Below are positions 1-28,796 of a stretch of DNA of 29,285 bases, one piece after another. The notes under the pieces are model-generated. The model ran no database searches and was not told where the DNA came from. It saw only the letters and a list, made by a program, of their open reading frames with translations. Source of the stretch: a virus; the IMG/VR virus record IMGVR_UViG_3300045452_000092, positions 1 to 29,285 of that record. One strand, given 5' to 3'. Each line of letters begins with the position of its first letter. Position 1 is the first letter of the stretch. The position numbers were made by a program, and so were the translations under genes.

Positions 1-1164
1 CTACCCGCCCCGCGCCCGCTCAAAACCTCCAACCGTGCCCTCGCCGAGGGAATAGAGCACGCCGATGTCGCTGGCGGTGGTGCTCGCCTCGGTCGCGACA
101 ATGCCCGAGCCGAAGGCCCGGGCCGTGCTGGCCGGGAGGGAGGCAGTGATCGTCACGTCAAGCACCGGCACCGGGTTCTGCGCCTCCCAGATCCGAAAGC
201 GCGCGGCGGTGCCTGCCGCGTTGACCTCGATGTCGAAGGTGAAGGGCTCGTCAAGCGCCAGCGTGCGCGTGGTCGCATGCACGGTGCGCGCGCCATTGTT
301 CGCGGTTTTGGCCGAGCATACATCGCCGAGGATCTCGAAATAGGCTCCGTCGGTGGCATCGGCATGGGTGAGCGTATCGAGATAGCCGATCCGCACGGTG
401 CGCCCGGTGAAGCTGCCCGCCCATTTGAACTGGCAGCGGAACTTGAAGCTAGCCAGGCCGAAAAAGGCGACGGCAACGCTCGAGGACTGGTAGCGGAAGC
501 CGCCGTTCGCGGTCGTGCCTGAGCGCAGAAGGATGCCGTAACGGTCATACCCGGCAACGGCGGGCGGCCCGCTACCGTTGGTGCCGCCCGAGATGGCCGT
601 GCCCACCCACAGACCTGCGGCGACCTGCGTGCTGCCGAACCGGTGCTCGCTCCAGAAATCCCACAGGCCGAGGGCGGGGGGGCTGGTGCCCGGGTCGCCT
701 TGCGGGCCTTGCGCGCCGGTCGGCCCGGCGGGACCCTGCGGCCCGGCCGGGCCCGCAGGGCCGGGGTCGCCGGTGTCGCCTTTCGGCCCGGCCGGGCCAG
801 CGGGACCGGCAGGCCCCTGCGCGCCGGTCGCCCCGGTGGGGCCGACCGGGCCAGCGGGGCCGGTATCGCCGGTGTCGCCCTTCAGCCCTTGCGGGCCAGC
901 GGGTCCGGCAGGGCCCTGCGCGCCGGTTGCACCGGCGGGGCCGACCGGGCCAGCGGGGCCGGGGTCGCCGGGGTCGCCCCTGGGTCCGGCGGGACCGGCA
1001 GGCCCCTGCGCTCCGGCCGACCCAGCCCCCGCAGGTGGCACGACAAAGGCTGCGGGCGACGTCATCGGCTGGCGCGCGGCCGCTTCGAGCACGCCTGCAG
1101 GCGTGATCCAGCGGATTGCCGCGCGGCGCGCAGGCACCAGCCAGCGCATCACAAAGGCGCTCAC
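1..1164 (-). CDS. Collagen-like tail fibre protein
   Basis: A 387-residue protein with a short N-terminal region (1-47), about 38 Gly-X-Y triplets at roughly residues 48-160, and a C-terminal domain of about 225 residues rich in beta-type, aromatic and Gly/Thr segments that looks like a lectin-type jelly roll. Collagen-like triplets in phage proteins form trimeric rigid shafts, so this is probably a fibre or fibre accessory that presents the C-terminal domain to the host surface. The stop codon is at the very first bases of the window, so the gene is complete. It starts with GTG, overlapping the upstream stop as GTGA. It lies at the distal end of the tail block, where adhesin genes usually sit. 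Shaft and location are well supported; receptor binding is inference. Confidence 0.85.
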
Positions 1165-13008: not shown

Positions 13009-13440
13009 TTACTCCTCGATTTTCAGCAGGCCGTGCATGACCTGGAAGGACTGGAACTGGCGGGGCCACTCGGTGTCGGGTTCGCGGCCAGACAGGCGGC
13101 CGCTGGCGGGATTAGCCCAGTGGATCAGGCACCCGGCATGGATCGAACGGCGTAGGGACCGAAGAGCGTAGAAGATGGCGCCCATCAGGCGGGTCGCCTC
13201 GCGCGGGGTAGGACCGAAGGCGAAGACATCGACCCGCTGCGTATCGTGCTCGACGTAGCTCTCGCCGGTCAGCGAAACGCCGCCCGAAGCCTTCACCACG
13301 AAGGCGTGGAGCGGCATGGAAGCGGCCTCGCGCGCGGGGAGCTCGCCGCCGAAGCCGCGCCCTTCGACCATCGCCGCGACAAAGGCGTCGGCCTTCAGGA
13401 ACGCGACCAACCCGCCTTCAAGATCGGCCATCTCAGGCAT
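13009..13440 (-). CDS. Tail terminator / tail completion protein (DUF3168-like)
   Basis: 143 residues from the ATG at 13440 (GGGAGG upstream); this start overlaps the previous stop by 8 bp and was preferred to a longer reading. The pattern LVAFLKADAFVAAMVEGR at the N-terminus, the beta-strands SMPLHAFVVKA and QRVDVFAFG, and the helix TRLMGAIFYALRSL fit the tail terminator fold that caps the tail tube and joins it to the head connector. Placement between the HK97 gp10-like and tube genes supports this. Family name is from layout and pattern, not a search. Confidence 0.72.
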   Translation of the reverse strand: MPEMADLEGGLVAFLKADAFVAAMVEGRGFGGELPAREAASMPLHAFVVKASGGVSLTGESYVEHDTQRVDVFAFGPTPREATRLMGAIFYALRSLRRSIHAGCLIHWANPASGRLSGREPDTEWPRQFQSFQVMHGLLKIEE

Positions 13441-13888
13441 CACTCGGACCTCCCTGAGAAGCGCCTGAGGCGCGTTCAAAGGCCGCGCGGATTTTGCCCG
13501 CGAGCTTGGGATAGATCGCGTCGGCGGCCGGGCGCAGGTAGGGGCGCGCGGGGATGCGCACGCTCTTGACGAAGCGGAAGGTGCCGTCGGGCTGCGGGAT
13601 CTTGAGCGCCCTGGCCCGCACCGGCACGATCACGCCGCCCAGCTCGTGGATCAGCGCGTAGCGGACATCGGTGCTGCCCCAGGTGCCGACCACCCCGGCC
13701 GCATCCTCGCGGGCAGGCTCGACAATGTTGATCGACGCTTCGAGCCTGCCCTGGCGGTTCTGCCAGGTGTGATTGTTCCGTGCGTGCTGGGCCGCCTCGG
13801 ACATCGTGGCGTTGATGCCGAGCTTCTGCGCCTCGCGCATCCGGCGGGTGATCGCCGCGCCGTCCCAGCGCAGGGATTGCGAGGTCAT
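13433..13888 (-). CDS. HK97 gp10-like head-tail joining protein
   Basis: 151 residues. The pattern with an N-terminal helix (ITRRMREAQKLGINATMSEAA), a beta-turn with GRLEASINI, the ALIHELGG motif, and the late RPYLRPAADAIYPKLAGKI helix is the classic signature of HK97 gp10-like proteins of the head-tail interface. ALxHElGG plus R-P-F/Y-L-x-P is the most recognisable part. It overlaps a 17-codon reading frame upstream by ATGA and the tail terminator gene downstream by 8 bp. Confidence 0.88.
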   Translation of the reverse strand: MTSQSLRWDGAAITRRMREAQKLGINATMSEAAQHARNNHTWQNRQGRLEASINIVEPAREDAAGVVGTWGSTDVRYALIHELGGVIVPVRARALKIPQPDGTFRFVKSVRIPARPYLRPAADAIYPKLAGKIRAAFERASGASQGGPSDA

Positions 13889-13938
13889 GGCCGCACCACC
13901 TCGGGCAGCGCAGCGGCAGGTGCGACAAGCAGCACCAT
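13885..13938 (-). CDS. Possible 17-codon minigene between head-tail genes
   Basis: An ATG-started frame encoding MVLLVAPAAALPEVVRP that begins in a TAATG overlap with the head closure gene stop and ends in an ATGA overlap with the gp10-like gene. It fills the gap exactly, so it could keep ribosomes moving between the two genes whether or not the peptide has a function. The peptide is too short to identify. Could be chance. Confidence 0.35.
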   Translation of the reverse strand: MVLLVAPAAALPEVVRP

Positions 13939-14285
13939 TACCCGATCCTCAGCAGCGCGGCTTCGCGGTGGGTGTGCTTGAACTGCACCGGCCCCTCGAC
14001 CCTGAGGCGGCCGGCGATGATCGTGCGGCCGTTCCGATCAACCACCCCGGTGATTTCGTCGCCCGGCGCAAGGTCCGCGCCCAGCGCGATCATGATCCGC
14101 AAATCCTCGATCTGGGCGGTCTTCATCCCGTCGCGCAGCTCGCGCGCGGCGGGCGAATAGACGAAGCACGCCAGCGCCGGGTGCAGCTCGGTGAAGACGG
14201 GCGCAGCCGCGCCGCCCCAGCTGTCTTGGGCGGTGGCGGTGTTGCGCACGACCCGCGCGAGCATGGTGAGGCGGCCCGCGATCAT
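13938..14285 (-). CDS. Head closure / head-tail adaptor protein
   Basis: 115 residues. Begins MIAGRLTMLARVVRNTATAQDSWGG and contains ALACFVYSPAARELRDG and later GDEITGVVDRNGRTIIAGRLRVEG. This order (N-terminal strand, W-containing loop, a strand with VxP, 'ARE' helix, then a GRTI strand) is that of head closure proteins of the phage head-tail joining family (HK97 gp7, SPP1 gp16 type). It lies directly before the gp10-like gene, as expected. ATGA overlap with the small membrane protein upstream. Confidence 0.75.
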   Translation of the reverse strand: MIAGRLTMLARVVRNTATAQDSWGGAAAPVFTELHPALACFVYSPAARELRDGMKTAQIEDLRIMIALGADLAPGDEITGVVDRNGRTIIAGRLRVEGPVQFKHTHREAALLRIG

Positions 14286-18021: not shown

Positions 18022-18085
18022 AGCGATCCTGAGGCATTCTGGGCCGCCTAACGCGGTTGCTGCTTGAGGCCGGTCTGGCCGGGTT

Positions 18086-18850: not shown

Positions 18851-18892
18851 CTCTGACGGGCCTCAAGCAGCGCAGCGGCAGGCCCGTCAGAG
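18851..18892. repeat. Stem-loop repeat copy A (13-bp stem)
   Basis: Perfect inverted repeat: 18851-18863 pairs with 18880-18892, with a 16-nt loop that reads GCCGCTGCGCTGCTTG on the minus strand. It contains the stop codon of the portal gene (18887-18889) and fills most of the gap before the protease gene. On the minus strand it is followed by CGTTTCTT, so it may also attenuate transcription. Confidence 0.75.
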
Positions 18893-21139
18893 ACCAAAAT
18901 GGGGAACGAAGGAAAGCGTGCAGTTGGGGCGCATGTTGTCGGCCATGATCCGGGCGTCCTCGGCCGAGACGATCTTGCCGCTGCGCGCGATGTGGCTGAG
19001 CTCGGATCGCGGCTCGCCGAAGATCCCGTCGAAGACGACCAGCTCGGTCGCACCGGCGGCCTTCGCGGTCTCCAGCACCGATCGGTTCTGCGCGAACTGG
19101 GTTTCGGTCCGGGCGATCACCCGCGCGCGGGTTTCGGCGTGGCCCCAGTGCCCGCCTTCGACCTGGTTGGCGATGCGGTTGGCGAGCGCGAGGATGCCCT
19201 CGCCCTCTTCGATGCCTGATCGCAGCGCCGCGAAGATCGCCTGCCGGGTCTGGGCGGACACATCGACCAGCCCGGCCCGGGTGCCGCCGGCCGCGATGAT
19301 CTCGCGCATGACGGGATCGGGCAGGCCGGTGCCGAAGCCTGCCTCCTGCAAGGTCTCGGCGGTGCGCCGCGCGATCGCCAGATACTGCGCCTGGTAGCGC
19401 GAGGACAGGCCCTGTTCCCACGCCTCGAGGTTGAGCAGGTCGATGATCTTGTTGATCAGCTCGGGATCGGGTTCGGCCTTCTGGCCCTTGGCCTCAAGCA
19501 GCGCAGCGATAGGCCGCGAGTGCTCCTTGAACCCGCTGGCGCGCAGGACATCGGCCGCGATCTTCGCCGCCGTGTCGCCCCAACCGGCAAACAGATCGAG
19601 CAGGCTGGCAGCAAAAGGCTCGGTCTGCGCCAGGGCTTCGCGGTTGAGCAGCCGCGCGACGCGCTCGGCGCGGGCGATCACCGCCTCACCGGCCTCGCGC
19701 GCCCCGGCGGGCAGCCAGTCCTCGAGCGGGTTGGCCTTGGTCTCAAGCAGCGCCGACAGCGCCTTGGCGGGCGGCGGCAGCCGGGGATCGGGCGCGGCCT
19801 CAAGCAGCGGCGCGGCAGGCCGCAAAGACGCCTCGCCGCCGCGCCCGGCGATCGCGGCCGGAACCTCAAGGACCGAAATCGGGCGCAAGTAATATTTGTG
19901 GCTCTCGTCGGCCTCGCGCCCGGTGGCGAGGAGGTAATCGTGGAGCATGATCGCCCCGGCCTGGAGTTCCTTGAGCAGGCGCTCGGTGCGCTTGTTCTCG
20001 TCCTCCTGCAGCGCGAGCACCTCGGCGGTGTCCCAGAACAGCTCGAGGCGGCGGCGATCGCCTGCGCGCTGGAAATCGGGAAGCAGGCTGCGCTGCAGCT
20101 CGTCCACCAGCGCGCGGCCCAGGGGCAGCACGCCGTTGTGCCAGGCGAGCTTGCGCATTTCCTCCATCGTCGCGCCGACCTTGGTGGCTTGCAGCCCCGC
20201 GCCGAAGCCGACGACGGCGGCCGGGATGCCGAGCGCGGCGCAAACCCGCTCCTCGGCCACGTCGCGCGCTTCGGACAGGTTCATCTGCTGCGGATTGAAG
20301 CCGTAGGCGGTGACATCGACCGGGTCGGCCATCACCAGCGTGCTGCCGCGCCCGTCGCCGCTGAAGGCTTGGCTAAACCAGGTCCTGGTCGCCTCGACAT
20401 CGTCGGGGTTGCCGATGCGGCCGTTCTTGGGGCTGATGACCACGCCGGGCACGCCCATGTTGCGCAGCAGGCTGGCGACGAAGTTGCTGCTTTCCATGTC
20501 GGCGAAGATTTCGCGGATGACGCTGCGCATCGGCGCGTAGCCGCGGCGCAGATCGCGCGGGTTGAGGCCGTTGCGAAAATGGATCACATCGGCCGGGTCG
20601 ATCGCGATCCGGCCATTGCCGGTGCCGGGCGTGTACCAGTAGTGCGACAGGAACTCGGTGCCGTCGAGCCCCGCCCTGGGCTCCATCATGAACTGCGGCA
20701 CGTACCACAGCTCGCGCACCCTGCCCGAAAGATCGCGGACCTTGAGCAGGTAGGCATCGCCCCAGAGGCAGAAATCGGCGACCACCCCGTTCCACAGCGC
20801 GATGTCGCCGTAATGCGGATTGGGCGCGCGGATCAGCTCGAGCAGGGGGTGATCCTCGACCGGCTCGCACTTGCCGCCCTGCTTGCGCTCGCGCATCGCC
20901 AGGCTCGCTTCGGGCAGGGCGCGCTGGAGCCACATCACCGGGGCCATCACCACCGAGGCGTCGAGCATGTCGCCGACTTCGCGGGCGTAATCGAAGCGGG
21001 TGCGCTTCAGCAGCCCGCCCAGGAACAGCGACTGCGCGGTGTGGCGCATCTGGGTGAGCGAGCTGGTGACCCGGGCGAGCGCCTTGGTCAGGAAATTGCC
21101 GCCGCCGGTGCTGCCAGTGGTGGTTGCGGGGAGGTTCAT
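18887..21139 (-). CDS. Portal protein fused to phage head morphogenesis domain
   Basis: 750 residues. Residues 1 to about 420 form an HK97-type portal: GDMLDASVVMAPVMWLQRAL, DHPLLELIRAPNP, WGDAYLLKVRDLSG, then DVIHFRNGLNPRDLRRGYAP and FGAGLQATKVGATMEEMRK. Residues about 600-750 resemble the SPP1 gp7 / Mu gpF minor head family: ETRARVIARTETQFAQNRSV, VVFDG, and a final DNMRPNCTLSFVP in place of the usual HPNCRC ending. The two are usually separate genes in Mu-like and HK97-like phages. The linker (about 430-560) carries three LLEA/LLET stretches encoded by copies of the stem-loop repeat. The portal forms the DNA channel and packaging dock; the fused part is thought to sit inside the head. The stop lies in a hairpin arm. 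Confidence 0.9.
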   Translation of the reverse strand: MNLPATTTGSTGGGNFLTKALARVTSSLTQMRHTAQSLFLGGLLKRTRFDYAREVGDMLDASVVMAPVMWLQRALPEASLAMRERKQGGKCEPVEDHPLLELIRAPNPHYGDIALWNGVVADFCLWGDAYLLKVRDLSGRVRELWYVPQFMMEPRAGLDGTEFLSHYWYTPGTGNGRIAIDPADVIHFRNGLNPRDLRRGYAPMRSVIREIFADMESSNFVASLLRNMGVPGVVISPKNGRIGNPDDVEATRTWFSQAFSGDGRGSTLVMADPVDVTAYGFNPQQMNLSEARDVAEERVCAALGIPAAVVGFGAGLQATKVGATMEEMRKLAWHNGVLPLGRALVDELQRSLLPDFQRAGDRRRLELFWDTAEVLALQEDENKRTERLLKELQAGAIMLHDYLLATGREADESHKYYLRPISVLEVPAAIAGRGGEASLRPAAPLLEAAPDPRLPPPAKALSALLETKANPLEDWLPAGAREAGEAVIARAERVARLLNREALAQTEPFAASLLDLFAGWGDTAAKIAADVLRASGFKEHSRPIAALLEAKGQKAEPDPELINKIIDLLNLEAWEQGLSSRYQAQYLAIARRTAETLQEAGFGTGLPDPVMREIIAAGGTRAGLVDVSAQTRQAIFAALRSGIEEGEGILALANRIANQVEGGHWGHAETRARVIARTETQFAQNRSVLETAKAAGATELVVFDGIFGEPRSELSHIARSGKIVSAEDARIMADNMRPNCTLSFVPHFGL
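19490..19515. repeat. Stem-loop repeat copy B, inside portal gene
   Basis: GGCCT/AGGCC arms around a 16-nt loop reading ATCGCTGCGCTGCTTG on the minus strand. In the portal frame it encodes RPIAALLEA. Confidence 0.65.
19794..19823. repeat. Stem-loop repeat copy D, inside portal gene
   Basis: GCGGCCT/AGGCCGC arms (7 bp) around a 16-nt loop reading GCCGCGCCGCTGCTTG on the minus strand, encoding RPAAPLLEAA. A weaker copy without pairing arms lies at about 19741-19765 and encodes ALSALLET. Confidence 0.65.
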
Positions 21140-21300
21140 GGCAGGACATCCTTCAGCAGCGCGATCTGGTTGGCCGACAGGATGACCTTCTGCTCACCGC
21201 CCGAACCGATCTGGCGGATGATCAGCGCCCCGGCCTCGGCTTTGACGATGGTCGCCTGCGCAAAGGCGTTGGGCCCGAGATTGTGCGTGCCGATCTTCAT
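21136..21300 (-). CDS. 54-residue protein between terminase and portal
   Basis: ATG at 21300 overlaps the terminase stop (ATGA) and the TGA overlaps the portal start (ATGA), so the frame fits exactly between two certain genes. The product begins MKIGTHNLGPNAFAQ and has strands ATIVKAEAGALIIRQ and EQKVILS followed by a short helix (ANQIALLKDVLP). No family recognised; it could be a small head or packaging factor. The overlaps are the main support. Confidence 0.75.
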   Translation of the reverse strand: MKIGTHNLGPNAFAQATIVKAEAGALIIRQIGSGGEQKVILSANQIALLKDVLP

Positions 21301-22718
21301 GCCGGGATCCAGTTTGCATCAAGGTCGAGCACGTCGGCAGACGCCCCCCTGCCCGGCGCGAGGCCGAGCGGCTGCATCCGCACCGTGCCCGCATCGCTGC
21401 CCGCGTGGATCGCCAGCGCCAGCGCCCAGAAGCGGTCGGCGTGGCCATCGGGCGTGCGCTCGGCGGTGAAGCGGATGTTGCCCGCGCCGGTCACCTGCTT
21501 GGTGACAGAACGCAGATCGGCGCGGATCTTGCCATCGTGCGGGATGCGCAGCCGCCGATCTTCCATCGTCCCGCGCACCGGGTAGGCCAGCGCCTCCTTC
21601 GACTGCGCGGTGAAGTTCACGCCCTCGACCCGGTACTTGCCGAAATTCGCCTGGGCGTCGTCCACCCAGCCGATGCCGAGGCCGGTGTTGTCGATCGCCA
21701 CCCGCCCGCCGCTGGCGAGCACCTCGGCGATGCACGGCCAGATCACCTTTTCCTGCGCAGGCTTGGTCATGTTGTGCAGGGTGATGACCCGGCGGGTGTA
21801 GAACACGTCGCCCAGCTTCTCGAGCAGCCAGAGGACGGTGAGGTCCTTCTTGCGGCCGAGGTCGATCCCGGCGAACAGCGTGCCGTGCTCGATCGTCTCC
21901 CAGGCGGTGCCGGCAGGATATTCGCACCGCGCGATCAGATCATATTCGAGGAACGCCGCGTCGTCATCGGCCGGGCGGCACATGTATTCCTGCTGGAAGC
22001 TTTCCTCGTCGGCCGCGCCGCTCTTCACGAAATCGAAATAGGCCGCCTCGTCCATCGCCTGGCGCTGATCGTCGGGCGGCAGCGCCTGCTGGAGCTTGTA
22101 GAGAAAGCCCTGATCCAGCGCGTCCTGCAGCGTCACGGTGTGCAGGCTGATCCCCTTGGGATTGCCTTGCTCGCGGATCTCGCGGACCAGCAGGTTGAAG
22201 AAGTTGGCGCTGCCGCGGTGCGTGCTGATCAGCTCCATCGCGCCGCCCCAGGTGATCCCCGGGTAGGCAATGGTCCACAGCTTTCTCGGATCGGGGTGGA
22301 GCGCGAACTCGTCAAGAATGCGCGGCCCGCGCTTGCCCGCCTGGGCGTTGGGGTTGGAGCTCATCGAATTGATCCGCCGCCCGCTGGCAAAACGCAGCAC
22401 GTAGGCGGTCTGGCGGTCACCCGGGTCGAGCACCTGCTCGCCCAGATCCTCGGCGGCGAGCTGAAGGTTGCCCGCCCAGAACTTGCAGTCTTCGACAAAC
22501 AGCTGCGCCTGGATGTCATCGCGCGAGCTGACCCACTGGTCGAGCCGCGCGGTGGAGAGCGCGGTGCGCGAGACGGCGGCGTAGGCGGTTGCCCAGGAAA
22601 GGCCGATCTGGCGGCTTTTCTCGATCAGCTTGAGCCGCGCCTCGTCCGCGATCCAGCGCGCCTGGTAGGGCAGGAAGATCGCCTCGGGCGCGGCAGGGAT
22701 GCACTTGGCATTACCCAT
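21297..22718 (-). CDS. Terminase large subunit, Mu gp28-like
   Basis: 473 residues. ATPase part: FLPYQARWIADEARLKLIEKSR carries the adenine-binding Gln and a Walker A variant (EKSRQIGLSWA, about 33-43), with RILDEFAL as the acidic Walker B-like motif. Nuclease part: FAGIDLGRKKDLTVLW (first acidic motif), VAIDNTGLGIGW (second) and DGHADRFWALALAIH (third), the RNase H-type nuclease of large terminases. It cuts and pumps DNA into the head; Mu relatives package by headful from inserted copies. Starts in a TGATG overlap with the small subunit gene. Confidence 0.93.
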   Translation of the reverse strand: MGNAKCIPAAPEAIFLPYQARWIADEARLKLIEKSRQIGLSWATAYAAVSRTALSTARLDQWVSSRDDIQAQLFVEDCKFWAGNLQLAAEDLGEQVLDPGDRQTAYVLRFASGRRINSMSSNPNAQAGKRGPRILDEFALHPDPRKLWTIAYPGITWGGAMELISTHRGSANFFNLLVREIREQGNPKGISLHTVTLQDALDQGFLYKLQQALPPDDQRQAMDEAAYFDFVKSGAADEESFQQEYMCRPADDDAAFLEYDLIARCEYPAGTAWETIEHGTLFAGIDLGRKKDLTVLWLLEKLGDVFYTRRVITLHNMTKPAQEKVIWPCIAEVLASGGRVAIDNTGLGIGWVDDAQANFGKYRVEGVNFTAQSKEALAYPVRGTMEDRRLRIPHDGKIRADLRSVTKQVTGAGNIRFTAERTPDGHADRFWALALAIHAGSDAGTVRMQPLGLAPGRGASADVLDLDANWIPA

Positions 22719-23299
22719 CAGCCCTGCCCCATCAGCGCGCGGTTGATCTTCGCCATTGCCTCGGGCGAAACGCCGTTGCGCTTGCCGATCTCGCCCGCCT
22801 GCCGGGCCGCCTCGGCGAGGCGCGCCTGCACTTCCTTTTCGAGCCGCTCGCGGTATTCGGCGCTCATCTTCTGGGCGGCGACAGCCGATTGAAGCGCGCG
22901 GCTCAGCTGCATGATGCCGGTGGTCGAAACTTCGCCTTCCTCGAGGATTTCGAACGCCGCCACCTTGAGCAGCTCGGCCACTGCAACCGTGACCTCGTCC
23001 GGGGCCTTGGCGTCCATCGTCCGGGCCAGCTCGCCGCCCATCCGCTGGATTTCGTCGAGGCGGCGGAACTGGATCGCCTTTCTCACCGCGTAGCGGCCCC
23101 AGGCGCTCCGGCTGACCGGGGCGATGCCGACATCGGCCAGTTTTTCGTTGAACTCGGCGAGGATCACCGCGCTCGGCAGCTTGCGTTCGCGCAGCGCATC
23201 ATTGGCCCAGACGATCGCAGCCTCGGCCTCGTCGGGGAGCATGTCGATCGACGAGAGGTGCCCGCGCCCCTTGCGCCGGTCGTTGCGCAGGCGCGGCAT
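22718..23299 (-). CDS. Terminase small subunit, Mu gp27-like (DUF3486)
   Basis: 193 residues from MPRLRNDRRKGRGHLSSIDMLP at 23299. The opening basic segment followed by SSIDMLPDEA and a helix-turn-helix-like region (AVILAEFNEKLADVGIAPVSRSAWGRYAV) is the signature of the Mu gp27 / DUF3486 family, a DNA-binding protein that works with gp28. The middle and end are long helices (SAVAAQKMSAEYRERLEKEV) for oligomer contact. One base separates it from the upstream stop. Confidence 0.9.
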   Translation of the reverse strand: MPRLRNDRRKGRGHLSSIDMLPDEAEAAIVWANDALRERKLPSAVILAEFNEKLADVGIAPVSRSAWGRYAVRKAIQFRRLDEIQRMGGELARTMDAKAPDEVTVAVAELLKVAAFEILEEGEVSTTGIMQLSRALQSAVAAQKMSAEYRERLEKEVQARLAEAARQAGEIGKRNGVSPEAMAKINRALMGQG

Positions 23300-23300
23300 C

Positions 23301-23609
23301 TCAGCGCGCCTCGGCCGGGCGCAGCACGCCTTCGAGGATGCTGCGCTCTTCCAGGTGATCGCGGCCCGCAGGCGCAAGCGTGGCGAAGATCACGTCCTCT
23401 GCCTCGGTCAGGGTGACCGCCCCCAGCGCCTCGAGCTTGCGCATCTGGGTGCGCACCCAGTCGCGATCGCGGCGGTAGCCGAAATAGTCGAGCGTGCGCC
23501 TGAGCAGCAGGTCGGACAGGCTGCCATCGGCCTGCGCCTCGAGCACCCGCAGGATGCGCAGCCGCACGTCGCGCGCGATGGCTTCGGCAAGATCGGCCTT
23601 GAAGCTCAC
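23301..23609 (-). CDS. Winged-helix phage protein (VpaChn25_0724-like)
   Basis: 102 residues, GTG start in a GTGA overlap. Helices AIARDVRLRILRVLEAQ, LSDLLLRRTLDYFGY and RDWVRTQMRKLEALGAV followed by a beta wing (TLTEAEDVIFATLAPAGRDHLE) make a winged helix. Genes of this type, often named VpaChn25_0724-like, occur before the Mu gp27/28 terminase genes in many Mu-like prophages. The job is not known; a role in packaging or late regulation is inference. Confidence 0.78.
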   Translation of the reverse strand: MSFKADLAEAIARDVRLRILRVLEAQADGSLSDLLLRRTLDYFGYRRDRDWVRTQMRKLEALGAVTLTEAEDVIFATLAPAGRDHLEERSILEGVLRPAEAR

Positions 23610-24022
23610 TTTTCCATCCCCCGGGGCACGACGACAGACAGGATCAGCGCAAGGTTCTTGTCGATCTGATCGACCTTGGCGGCGGTCCCGGCCGAGATCG
23701 CGGCGTGTTCCGACTGCTTTTCGGCAAGCACGCGCTGGCGCGATTCGTGGTCGGCCTGCTTGCTGGCGAGGCGCTCGATCGCCTTTTCGAGCCGCTTGAT
23801 GTCGGCCGCGCTGGCGAAGTTGCCCTCGATCTTCTCGACCCGTTCGGTCAGATCGCCGAGCCTGCCGGTCACCGCCTTGACCTCGCCCGCAAGCACCCCG
23901 ATCTTCCGGTCGAGCCCGCCGGTGGCGACCGGGTTGCGCGCCCCCCCGCGCCAGGCGGCGAGGGTGATGCCGAAGACGATGAAGGCGATGATCGCCAGCT
24001 CGAAGAGATTGCCGGTGGTCAC
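23606..24022 (-). CDS. DUF2730-like membrane-anchored coiled-coil protein
   Basis: 138 residues from a GTG in a GTGA overlap. One N-terminal membrane span (about 8-24, LAIIAFIVFGITLAAWRGG) is followed by a long coiled coil with repeating heptads (LAGEVKAVTGRLGDLTERVEKIEGN, IERLASKQADHESRQRVLAEKQ) and a final hydrophobic stretch LALILSVVVP. This is the DUF2730 layout common just upstream of the terminase genes in Mu-like phages. Function is not established; a lysis-related envelope role is possible. Confidence 0.75.
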   Translation of the reverse strand: MTTGNLFELAIIAFIVFGITLAAWRGGARNPVATGGLDRKIGVLAGEVKAVTGRLGDLTERVEKIEGNFASAADIKRLEKAIERLASKQADHESRQRVLAEKQSEHAAISAGTAAKVDQIDKNLALILSVVVPRGMEK

Positions 24023-24492
24023 GCGTCTGGTCCTTCTTGCCGCCCTGCCGCCTCGCTGCTTGAGGGCTGGATGGTCGATGTTGCCCCGGCAAACGCGCGG
24101 CGCAGGAATTCTCTCGACTGCTCGCCGAACATTTCGAGCAGGGAGAAACCGGAAAAGCCCAGGCCGATCGCGACGACAAAGGCGAACAGCCACCCCGGGC
24201 GGCTTTCGATGATCCACAGCTGGACAGTGACCAGCAGGATGAAGCTGACCAGGAGGCGCAGCTTCCAGCCCAGATCGGCCTCGGCCCGGACGGTGAAGGG
24301 CCGCGCCGCGATCACGCCGACCGCGCCCAGCACGCAGGTGACCACCGGGACCGGCAGGCCCCAGGCATCGATCAGGAAGCGATCGGCGAGCGGGGTGCGC
24401 GCGTCGGGCACCACGATCGCCACCGCCAGGGTCGGCAGCCAGAGCTGGAGGAATTTGGAGAAGCTCAGCGGCAGCGAAAGGTTCTGGATCAC
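24019..24492 (-). CDS. Integral membrane protein, candidate holin
   Basis: 157 residues from a GTG in a GTGA overlap. Three or four hydrophobic segments: about 17-29 (LQLWLPTLAVAIV), 47-65 (PVPVVTCVLGAVGVIAA), 79-96 (LLVSFILLVTVQLWII) and 99-115 (WLFAFVVAIGLGFSGF). It lies in the lysis block next to the spanin and endolysin genes, which have no signal of their own for export, so this is the best holin candidate by position; Mu-like lysis holins are not easily recognised by sequence. The Ser/Glu/Gly-rich C-terminal tail is encoded across stem-loop repeat copy F. Confidence 0.65.
   Translation of the reverse strand: MIQNLSLPLSFSKFLQLWLPTLAVAIVVPDARTPLADRFLIDAWGLPVPVVTCVLGAVGVIAARPFTVRAEADLGWKLRLLVSFILLVTVQLWIIESRPGWLFAFVVAIGLGFSGFSLLEMFGEQSREFLRRAFAGATSTIQPSSSEAAGRQEGPDA
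24042..24067. repeat. Stem-loop repeat copy F, opposite orientation
   Basis: GCCCT/AGGGC arms around the 16-nt loop GCCGCCTCGCTGCTTG, here on the plus strand, within the 3' end of the candidate holin gene. The arms differ from those of the other copies but still pair. Confidence 0.6.
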
Positions 24493-24713
24493 CGGCGCGC
24501 CTCCAGCCTGGTCTGGCAAGCGATGCAGCGCCTGGCCGAAGGCAGCGCCAGACGGCGCGCCTCCTCGATCCGTTCGCCGCAGGTGAGGCAGAAATCCTCG
24601 CCGAGCCCGCCCAGGCGGCGCTGGATGCGGGCGACCGCGCCCTCCTTCTCGAGCCGCTCGAAGGCCTCGGCGCGCTCGAGGCCGCGCTCCCCCAGATCGA
24701 GCGGGCCGGTCAC
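24489..24713 (-). CDS. DksA/TraR-type C4 zinc finger protein
   Basis: 74 residues from a GTG in a GTGA overlap. An N-terminal helix (LERAEAFERLEKEGAVARIQRRL) is followed by CLTCGERIEEARRLALPSARRCIACQTRLE, with Cys42, Cys45, Cys63 and Cys66 in the DksA/TraR arrangement. Short TraR-like proteins bind the secondary channel of RNA polymerase and can shift host transcription without ppGpp. Such genes occur in many Mu-like phages. It lies between the spanin and membrane protein genes, so it should be made late. Confidence 0.88.
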   Translation of the reverse strand: MTGPLDLGERGLERAEAFERLEKEGAVARIQRRLGGLGEDFCLTCGERIEEARRLALPSARRCIACQTRLEARR

Positions 24714-27610: not shown

Positions 27611-27801
27611 GTCACCGGCTCCACGGGAGAGACGATGGGAGCGGATCGCAGACGCGCCTGGGCCTCGAGTTTGTCCGCAGCCTCCCGCAGCCAGAGTGCG
27701 GCGCTAAACAGCAGTCCGCCATCGGCGCAGAACCATGCCATATCGACCAGCTCGGATGCGGTCATCTCGCTTTCCGCACGCGGTTCCTGCGGCGCGCTCA
27801 T
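27607..27801 (-). CDS. 64-residue hypothetical protein
   Basis: Starts MSAPQEPRAESEMTASEL at 27801, overlapping the MuB stop (ATGA). The middle (ELVDMAWFCADGGLLFSAALWLREAADKLEAQARL) is one or two amphipathic helices with a hydrophobic face. No family recognised. The overlaps at both ends support it as a real gene. Confidence 0.65.
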   Translation of the reverse strand: MSAPQEPRAESEMTASELVDMAWFCADGGLLFSAALWLREAADKLEAQARLRSAPIVSPVEPVT

Positions 27802-28796
27802 TGCCCCGTCCTCGAATTCTGCGCCCACGCCTTCTTGAGGTGCTGGATCGTCACGGTGGTGCCCTGCGTCACGGCCATCAGGTGCGCGACCTCCAGCGCG
27901 AAGGTCGCACCGCGCAGCGCGCCGGGCTTTCCGGCCATCTCCCGCACGAAAGCGATCATCTTCTCGTCCGCGATGCCCCATGCGGCAGCCAGCGCCTCGG
28001 CATCGCCGTCCACCGCGCGCGGGCGGGTGAGGTTCAGGCCGATGCGGCTGAAGATCTGCGCGAAATCGGCCGCGCGGCTCACGCCGTAGATCGACTGCTG
28101 CACCCGCTCGTTGCCCATCAGCGCGATGCCGACGCCGGTCTCGTCATGCCAGCTGCGGATTTCCTCGAGCGCCTTGATCGACAAGTGCTGGGCCTCGTCG
28201 ATGATGATCACCGCGTGGCGCAGCTCGCGGACCTTGTCGCACACCATTTCGGACAGGTGCGCGGGCGATCCGATCGCCTGCTTTTCGCCGAGCGCGCGCA
28301 GCACGCGTTGCTGCATCGGCATAATGCCGCTGGTCGATGCGGTCATCGTCGCCATGAAGCTGTTGTGATTGTCGCGCAGGAAGTTCCGCGCCGTCTCGGT
28401 CTTGCCGAGCCCCGCGCCGGTGACGATCAGCACCAGCCGGCCGCGCTGCGCCCAGCGCAGGTAATGCGTGATCGCCGCGCTGGTCGGCGTCTCGAAGAAG
28501 CCCGGCTTCTCGGGCAGATCGGCGACCAGTTCGGACTGCGAGGCGAGCGTCTGGCGGTAGGCCGCGATCATGTCGGCGTACTTCTTGCGGTTCCCCGCAT
28601 AGCCCTTGCCCAGCAGGTTGCTGACCGTGCCGTGCGGAATGCCGGTCCAGCTGGCGATCTCGGTGAAGCTCGCGCCGTTGTCGGCCTTGTGCGCCTTCAG
28701 CCATTCGATCTGCTCTTCGACGAAGCGATTTTCGGGCGTCATCTCGCCCTGCTGCTCCATCACCCCGGTGAGGCTTTCCTGTGCTCTGGTTGCCAT
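27798..28796 (-). CDS. MuB-like AAA+ ATPase, transposition target protein
   Basis: 332 residues, AAAGGA upstream. An N-terminal helix-turn-helix (about 43-62, SFTEIASWTGIPHGTVSNLL) is followed by an AAA+ core: Walker A GAGLGKTE at about 127-134, Walker B AVIIIDE at 195-201, and a GIALMGNE sensor stretch near 223-230. MuB forms filaments on target DNA, stimulates transposase and steers it away from the phage's own DNA. The C-terminal helical part (ALEVAHLMAV) is retained. It is 90 bp downstream of the transposase gene, in Mu order. Confidence 0.93.
   Translation of the reverse strand: MATRAQESLTGVMEQQGEMTPENRFVEEQIEWLKAHKADNGASFTEIASWTGIPHGTVSNLLGKGYAGNRKKYADMIAAYRQTLASQSELVADLPEKPGFFETPTSAAITHYLRWAQRGRLVLIVTGAGLGKTETARNFLRDNHNSFMATMTASTSGIMPMQQRVLRALGEKQAIGSPAHLSEMVCDKVRELRHAVIIIDEAQHLSIKALEEIRSWHDETGVGIALMGNERVQQSIYGVSRAADFAQIFSRIGLNLTRPRAVDGDAEALAAAWGIADEKMIAFVREMAGKPGALRGATFALEVAHLMAVTQGTTVTIQHLKKAWAQNSRTGQ

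Follow-up and report, generated by a model that had tools for sequence, protein, structure and literature searches.

The 29-kb virus record analysed here (IMG/VR IMGVR_UViG_3300045452_000092, 29,285 nucleotides; hereafter the window) carries six copies of an imperfect hairpin of about 36 nt, which probably represents a family of very short (~36 bp), non-autonomous mobile elements. The element is composed of the core CTCAAGCAGCGNAGCGGYAG, variable arms that pair over at least 3 bp, and an A-rich tail. Comparison of empty and filled alleles in phages and chromosomes shows, at the level of aligned sequences, that it has been inserted in the past; also shown are an exact size of 36 nt at two chromosomal sites, tolerance of in-frame insertion, also in essential genes, covariation of the arms and a patchy spread over two phyla and phages.

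A recurrent hairpin in the virus window

A search of the window with the pattern CTCAAGCAGCGNNGCGGCAG, in which up to 3 mismatches were allowed, gave six matches, compared with a mean of 0.19 and a maximum of 2 in 100 shuffles. The covariance model R1, built from 60 sequences of which two came from the window (19794 and 19488) and the others from copies elsewhere, found six window copies at E values of 2e-5 or below. The copies, one remnant and the gene that hosts several of them are as follows (E values from R1 except for the portal gene):

13895-13930 (+): hairpin copy, E=3e-6, not in the model; intergenic, between 13433-13888 and 13938-14285
18037-18073 (-): hairpin copy with a variant inner loop, E=2e-5, not in the model; intergenic, downstream of the protease gene
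18857-18892 (+): hairpin copy, E=7e-10, not in the model; at the junction of the portal and protease genes
19488-19523 (+): hairpin copy, E=4e-10, in the model; in the portal gene, antisense, encodes RPIAALLEA
19742-19765 (+): degenerate remnant, E=0.12; in the portal gene, encodes ALSALLETK
19794-19829 (+): hairpin copy, E=2.5e-10, in the model; in the portal gene, antisense, encodes RPAAPLLEA
24034-24069 (-): hairpin copy, E=5e-10, not in the model; sense, encodes PSSSEAAG
18887-21139 (-): portal gene (phrog_2662 portal, E=4e-67), whose variable linkers host two copies and one remnant

The first-pass annotation of this DNA had described four stem-loops with a shared loop and arms that differ yet pair, and all four are present. 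The 13-bp arms that it gave to the first of them, the copy at 18857, were borne out: the palindrome spans 18851-18892 and folds at -30.2 kcal/mol (z -5.1), and the portal stop codon (CTC TGA, 18887-18892) comes from an arm of this copy. Two weaker copies had also been suggested; the one at 18046 is genuine (E=2e-5), and the one at 19741 is only a remnant (E=0.12). The copy at 13895 had been missed, the observation as a whole understated the case, and the plain 16-nt loop has to be replaced by an internal loop with a small inner stem. The copy at 24034 lies near the 3' end of a 166-aa gene (24019-24519).

Empty and filled sites in phages and chromosomes

Related portal genes were found at 60 loci in a protein search. 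Contigs whose portals share more than ~60% identity often have the hairpin, mostly at other positions, and those with more distant portals are mostly without it; the portals of Sinorhizobium phages (~72% nucleotide identity to that of the window) have no inserts. At the nucleotide level, empty sites were found in relatives for four of the six window copies (13895, 18857, 19488 and 24034). The 13895 site is empty in L011, L012, L013, L016, L023 and L026. The 18857 site is empty in L012, L013, L018, L023 and L026, and the long-armed copy that fills it in the window has orthologues in L014, L016 and L029, with compensatory changes in the arms. The 24034 site is empty in L015, L018, L023 and L026 and filled in L011, L012 and L020. 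The 19488 copy accounts for about nine extra portal residues (EHSRPIAAL), absent from most of the homologues L012-L029, with a net insert of 33-36 nt. In the portal protein alignment the 19794 copy is shared with L029, and the site of the 19742 remnant holds better copies in L021, L023 and L026. The comparison of portal alleles with and without the element, which had been proposed as a check, gives an in-frame insertion in a variable linker.

In L013 (13732), L014 (13886) and L016 (9774) a copy lies at a gene start, and an ATG on the 3' edge of the insert has apparently taken over as start codon. A regulatory role in 5' untranslated regions, hinted at by an ATG after some copies, was rejected, as the distances to the next start vary widely.

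The sharpest boundaries are chromosomal. In Caulobacter trmFO, two alleles contain an exact 36-nt in-frame insert, GGC|GCGCCCTC...AAAA|AAG, one has a tandem pair and others have variants or remnants, while more than 20 species are without the insert. In an Erythrobacter gene, exactly 36 nt are present in frame at one codon boundary in 3 of 30 species alleles. These three are scattered on the gene tree without grouping, which implies that insertion or precise loss happened more than once, or that alleles were transferred. In-frame copies were also found in genes for NrdJ, PheS, GlyS, PutA, Mfd, ThiC, a GCV_T/DAO protein and a cyclophilin.

Among 61 in-gene copies, in genes called with a simple home-made caller, 47 are read in sense as SSSEAVG, 4 in the other open sense frame, 9 in antisense as TASLLEA and 1 in the other antisense frame. 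The preferred SSSEAVG frame explains the sense bias of this set (51:10), and its choice suggests that copies are filtered at the protein level once inserted. The strand bias of intergenic copies (39:26) is not significant (p 0.14).

Conserved core and covarying arms

The anatomy was derived from 170 copies with unrelated flanks. Watson-Crick pairing at arm positions 1, 2 and 3 reaches 96, 91 and 88%, and position 4 is at background. Position 2, where 32% pairing would be expected, is nearly free in its letters (G-C 61, C-G 57, T-A 33, A-T 4). The 20-nt core is near-invariant except at position 12 and, less so, at 7 and 17, and tail positions +4 to +11 are A-rich. In 60 diverse copies, 96.5% of cells are paired and 61 cells carry double changes, compared with 20.8 after shuffling; the covariation score is 0.330 against 0.104 for shuffles (0 of 500), and it was lower in all slid controls. 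Arm covariation is thus far above both kinds of control, which answers the concern that the pairing might not exceed that of shuffled sequence.

Some subfamilies have longer covarying inner stems, around CGC (GCGAC/GTCGC, GCGCC/GGCGC, GCAAC/GTTGC, GCACC/GGTGC and GGCCC/GGGCC) or around AAA (GCGC and GGCC). One of them, from G137 (L281-L287), has a 5-bp covarying inner stem around CGC and a total length of ~50 nt, with further 50-nt matches in G616 and G784. The internal loop (CAAGYA opposite GRU) is constant across subfamilies, and its AGUA/GA letters might be taken to recall a bulged-G (sarcin-ricin type) motif. For the short form, RNAalifold favours a 2-bp inner pairing, unlike the inner fold proposed here; the outer helix is firm.

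The first-pass annotation had left it undecided whether the hairpin is mobile or an RNA signal. The empty and filled sites show insertion, and from the covariation of the helix it seems that the folded shape is of importance too, whether as DNA or as RNA.

Distribution in viruses, plasmids and bacteria

The consensus CTCAAGCAGCGNAGCGGTAGG was found, as an exact match, in 58 stretches of viral contigs and at least 117 stretches of bacterial contigs; by our own estimate, a pattern with 20 fixed bases would give less than 1 chance match per collection. The bacterial carriers among the matches listed belong to Erythrobacteraceae, Rhodobacteraceae, Caulobacteraceae, Hyphomonadaceae, Hyphomicrobiales and Euzebyaceae (Actinomycetota). 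The counted carrier genomes have from 1 to ~48 copies, and the reversed pattern gave no match in 14 genomes. With R1, carriers were 17 of 240 Alphaproteobacteria genomes (E up to 0.01), 14 of 299 Pseudomonadota genomes and 13 of 198 Actinomycetota genomes (both E up to 0.001), each sampled set including its own carrier centre. Presence is patchy, at about 5-7% of the sampled Pseudomonadota and Actinomycetota genomes. In PLSDB, eight plasmids carry the element, and several of these plasmids have it in rRNA operons; no GenBank phage record contains the consensus. The search for further copies in related phages and bacterial genomes, which the first-pass annotation had suggested, has thus yielded a great number, and together with the allele comparisons and the covariation they uphold its view of selection or spread at the nucleic-acid level.

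The element also occurs in tandem arrays, and close loci differ by whole units, as slippage or unequal recombination would give. Two Actinomycetota genomes (G399 and G496; L335-L337) have more than 30 copies each, with tandem arrays of period ~34-36; the arm GAC/GTC is common in G399. At four loci (L131:4691, L157:1318, L160:740 and L229:5203), copies or variable-number arrays lie directly upstream of one shared gene of Erythrobacteraceae and others, whose product starts with MRVDFYQ and looks like DNA polymerase III chi. In Asticcacaulis biprosthecium, a TPP (thiamine pyrophosphate) riboswitch lies directly upstream of two copies (L174:2541-2656).

In Rhodobacteraceae and the related genome G612, copies are present in rRNA operons: in the 16S leader, the tRNA-Ile/tRNA-Ala spacer, after tRNA-Ala, just before 23S, and in the 5S-tRNA spacer. 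They are also found inside the 23S gene, where they start ~175 and ~1330 nt into the gene; we take this to match helices 9 and 45, which are known to be prone to inserts. Nine of ten RNA-operon copies are in sense. Of the 170 copies in the anatomy set, 12 have a tRNA gene within 250 nt, and 3 of these 12 are in rRNA operons.

Genomic context of the window

The portal-terminase-protease region of the window has ~72% DNA identity to Sinorhizobium phages StopSmel and Aussie and 71% to Microcystis phage Mwe-Yong1, its terminase has a DNA match to Pseudomonas phage B3, and a MuB-like DNA transposition protein (phrog_296) is encoded at 27798-28796. On the basis of these identities and the MuB-like protein, the window is most likely a B3-like, Mu-like phage. 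At its other end, 1-1164 (-) is a probable tail-tip or fibre gene with collagen-like Gly-X-Y repeats.

Evidence for and against mobility

Several points weigh against the interpretation as a mobile element. Movement was not observed and is deduced from species that are 10-25% diverged. Net insert sizes at the diverged phage sites range from 25 to 51, so that only the two chromosomal sites give secure boundaries for the element, and at these (trmFO and the Erythrobacter gene) no target-site duplication was seen. One phage site is not accounted for by insertion of a simple block: its empty allele seems to contain the 5' arm already, with GAGATCGC in both alleles. This site suggests that the target may have templated the arms, but at trmFO and in the Erythrobacter gene whole arms were inserted, which contradicts it. 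Furthermore, the enzymes that might move it are mostly missing. PF01797 (Y1_Tnp; the family of RAYT and IS200-type transposases) is absent in 28 of 29 carrier genomes, while the controls of this search were positive in 5 of 14, and its only match among carriers, in G355 (L333, G355:C31:2212-2487), has an in-frame stop. The reverse transcriptase family PF00078 is absent in 12 of 15 carriers, including G011, G399, G496 and G135 with 30 or more copies each, and a reverse transcriptase was rejected as the mover on this ground. When 465 neighbouring proteins were clustered, most groups reflected orthologous neighbourhoods and no gene was widely shared, which speaks against an autonomous partner beside the copies.

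In the mechanism that we propose, the unit comprises an outer helix of at least three variable pairs plus C-G and U-A, enclosing a conserved internal loop (5' CAAGYA / 3' GRU) and a short inner stem-loop, and ends in an A-rich 8-nt tail. It would be inserted whole into phage genomes, into genes and spacers, and into rRNA and tRNA operons, and could afterwards multiply into tandem arrays with a period of 33-40 bp. The internal loop may be what a trans-acting enzyme recognises in the folded single strand, and no dedicated partner gene would travel with the element. In-gene copies would survive since an insert of 36 nt leaves the reading frame intact and adds a bland linker (SSSEAVG or TASLLEA), and phages such as the putatively Mu-like one of the window may help to carry the element between hosts.

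A further-reaching version is put forward only tentatively. It supposes a new class of minimal mobile hairpins for which an undescribed enzyme reads the conserved internal loop of a folded single strand and writes the arms anew with every insertion, and which phages would carry across phyla, seeding protein linkers and rRNA inserts. The arms indeed vary freely: G-C and C-G occur at about the same frequency, and G-U or mismatch intermediates are few.

It could also be supposed that the hairpin is a selected cis-acting RNA element that tunes the processing of rRNA, tRNA and mRNA, serves as a binding or cleavage site, for example for RNase III or an RNA-binding protein recognising the internal loop, and has spread by ordinary duplication and transfer. 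The sites in and around rRNA and tRNA genes with their sense orientation, the sense excess of in-gene copies, and helices that vary around an internal loop conserved across two phyla and the subfamilies would suit such a role. However, an element found in so small a share of genomes, with close relatives lacking the copy at the same site, is hard to reconcile with it; the in-gene bias follows from the reading frame, the intergenic bias is not significant, and phage structural genes and metabolic enzymes, in which copies also lie, share no regulatory logic. We consider this explanation rather unlikely.

Retroposition, in which a small RNA, folded and ending in an A-rich tail, would be reverse-transcribed and inserted in the manner of a bacterial SINE (short interspersed nuclear element), would account for the conserved tail after the hairpin, the structure conserved as RNA and the sense bias in transcribed regions. 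It is nevertheless improbable given the lack of PF00078 in most of the carriers searched, even in those richest in copies, although the enzyme could be intermittent.

Movement of a REP (repetitive extragenic palindromic) or REPIN element by a RAYT (Y1 HUH) transposase is already largely refuted and very improbable. The short hairpin with an internal bulge and GTAG letters resembles such elements, some of which lie inside genes (PMC3733652), but here GTAG lies within the folded core and not in an unpaired end tag, and the transposase is missing from nearly all carriers in a search with positive controls.

Finally, a protein-level repeat or ancestral linker, with the hairpin as a by-product of codon usage, deserves next to no credence: although most in-gene copies encode SSSEAVG, the same DNA occurs in spacers, the internal transcribed spacer and 23S rRNA, runs in either orientation and is read in other frames, relatives are without the element, and covariation is found in mostly non-coding copies, so that the rRNA and intergenic copies refute this reading, as the first-pass annotation had anticipated.

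Comparison with known repeats

The family of ~36-bp mobile hairpins is not listed in the sources searched. A covariance-model search of Rfam gave no family over the element, at the gathering score or at relaxed E, and a known RNA family was rejected. In the open literature no relevant paper was found for the core or the peptide, which is no proof that the element is undescribed; 11-mer matches came from unrelated papers and are probably primers.

Rickettsia palindromic elements (RPEs) are dispersed palindromes in spacers, housekeeping genes (in frame) and RNA genes, and their mover is unknown (PMC2229807, PMC10969869). The likeness to RPEs that had been proposed holds for behaviour: like these and the Wolbachia elements (WPE), the hairpin is palindromic, dispersed, and inserted in RNA genes and in frame in unrelated protein genes. 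It does not hold for length and taxonomic range, as RPEs are 105-146 bp and confined to Rickettsia, whereas the present element has 36 nt and is carried by Erythrobacteraceae, Rhodobacteraceae, Caulobacteraceae, Actinomycetota and phages; the comparison is one of published descriptions. The conserved internal loop with variable arms and the tandem arrays also distinguish the present element.

With REP/REPIN sequences it shares hairpins of 20-40 bp with a mismatch or bulge, sometimes in genes or clusters. GTAG REPs and REPINs have an unpaired GTAG end tag and head-to-head dimers, whereas here GTAG occupies core positions 17-20, with A19 and G20 in the outer helix, the arrays are head-to-tail, and PF01797 was found in one of 29 carriers. 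CGTC-tagged REPs are likewise Alphaproteobacterial and without a known dedicated transposase (PMC3733652), but have 8-9 bp stems, 4-5 nt loops, a CGTC tag, a CCA tail and rare clusters, none of which fits the composition of the 170 copies. The CIR repeats of Caulobacter and Brucella are also dispersed Alphaproteobacterial repeats with an RNA-like fold, but are ~110 bp long, contain a GANTC motif and are strictly intergenic (PMC2229807, PMC10969869). Intervening sequences of 23S rRNA (helices 9, 25 and 45) are defined by position; copies of the element occur at such positions in Rhodobacteraceae, but also far outside rRNA. Miniature inverted-repeat transposable elements (MITEs) are defined by terminal inverted repeats of a known insertion sequence and by a target-site duplication; no such duplication was seen at the two exact sites, and no neighbour gene recurs beside the copies, though no exhaustive search for a parent insertion sequence was made.

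Implications

These results suggest that selfish palindromes in protein genes are not peculiar to Rickettsia and Wolbachia. A 36-bp element occurs in genes of free-living Alphaproteobacteria, Actinomycetota and phages, among them genes for aminoacyl-tRNA synthetases, ribonucleotide reductase and TrmFO, and it is a possible source of rRNA inserts in Rhodobacteraceae and of short linker insertions in proteins. Since the usual transposase is absent, what moves the element becomes a sharp question. Being tiny, recognisable and present in cultivable hosts such as Caulobacter, Cereibacter sphaeroides and Asticcacaulis, the element is open to testing.

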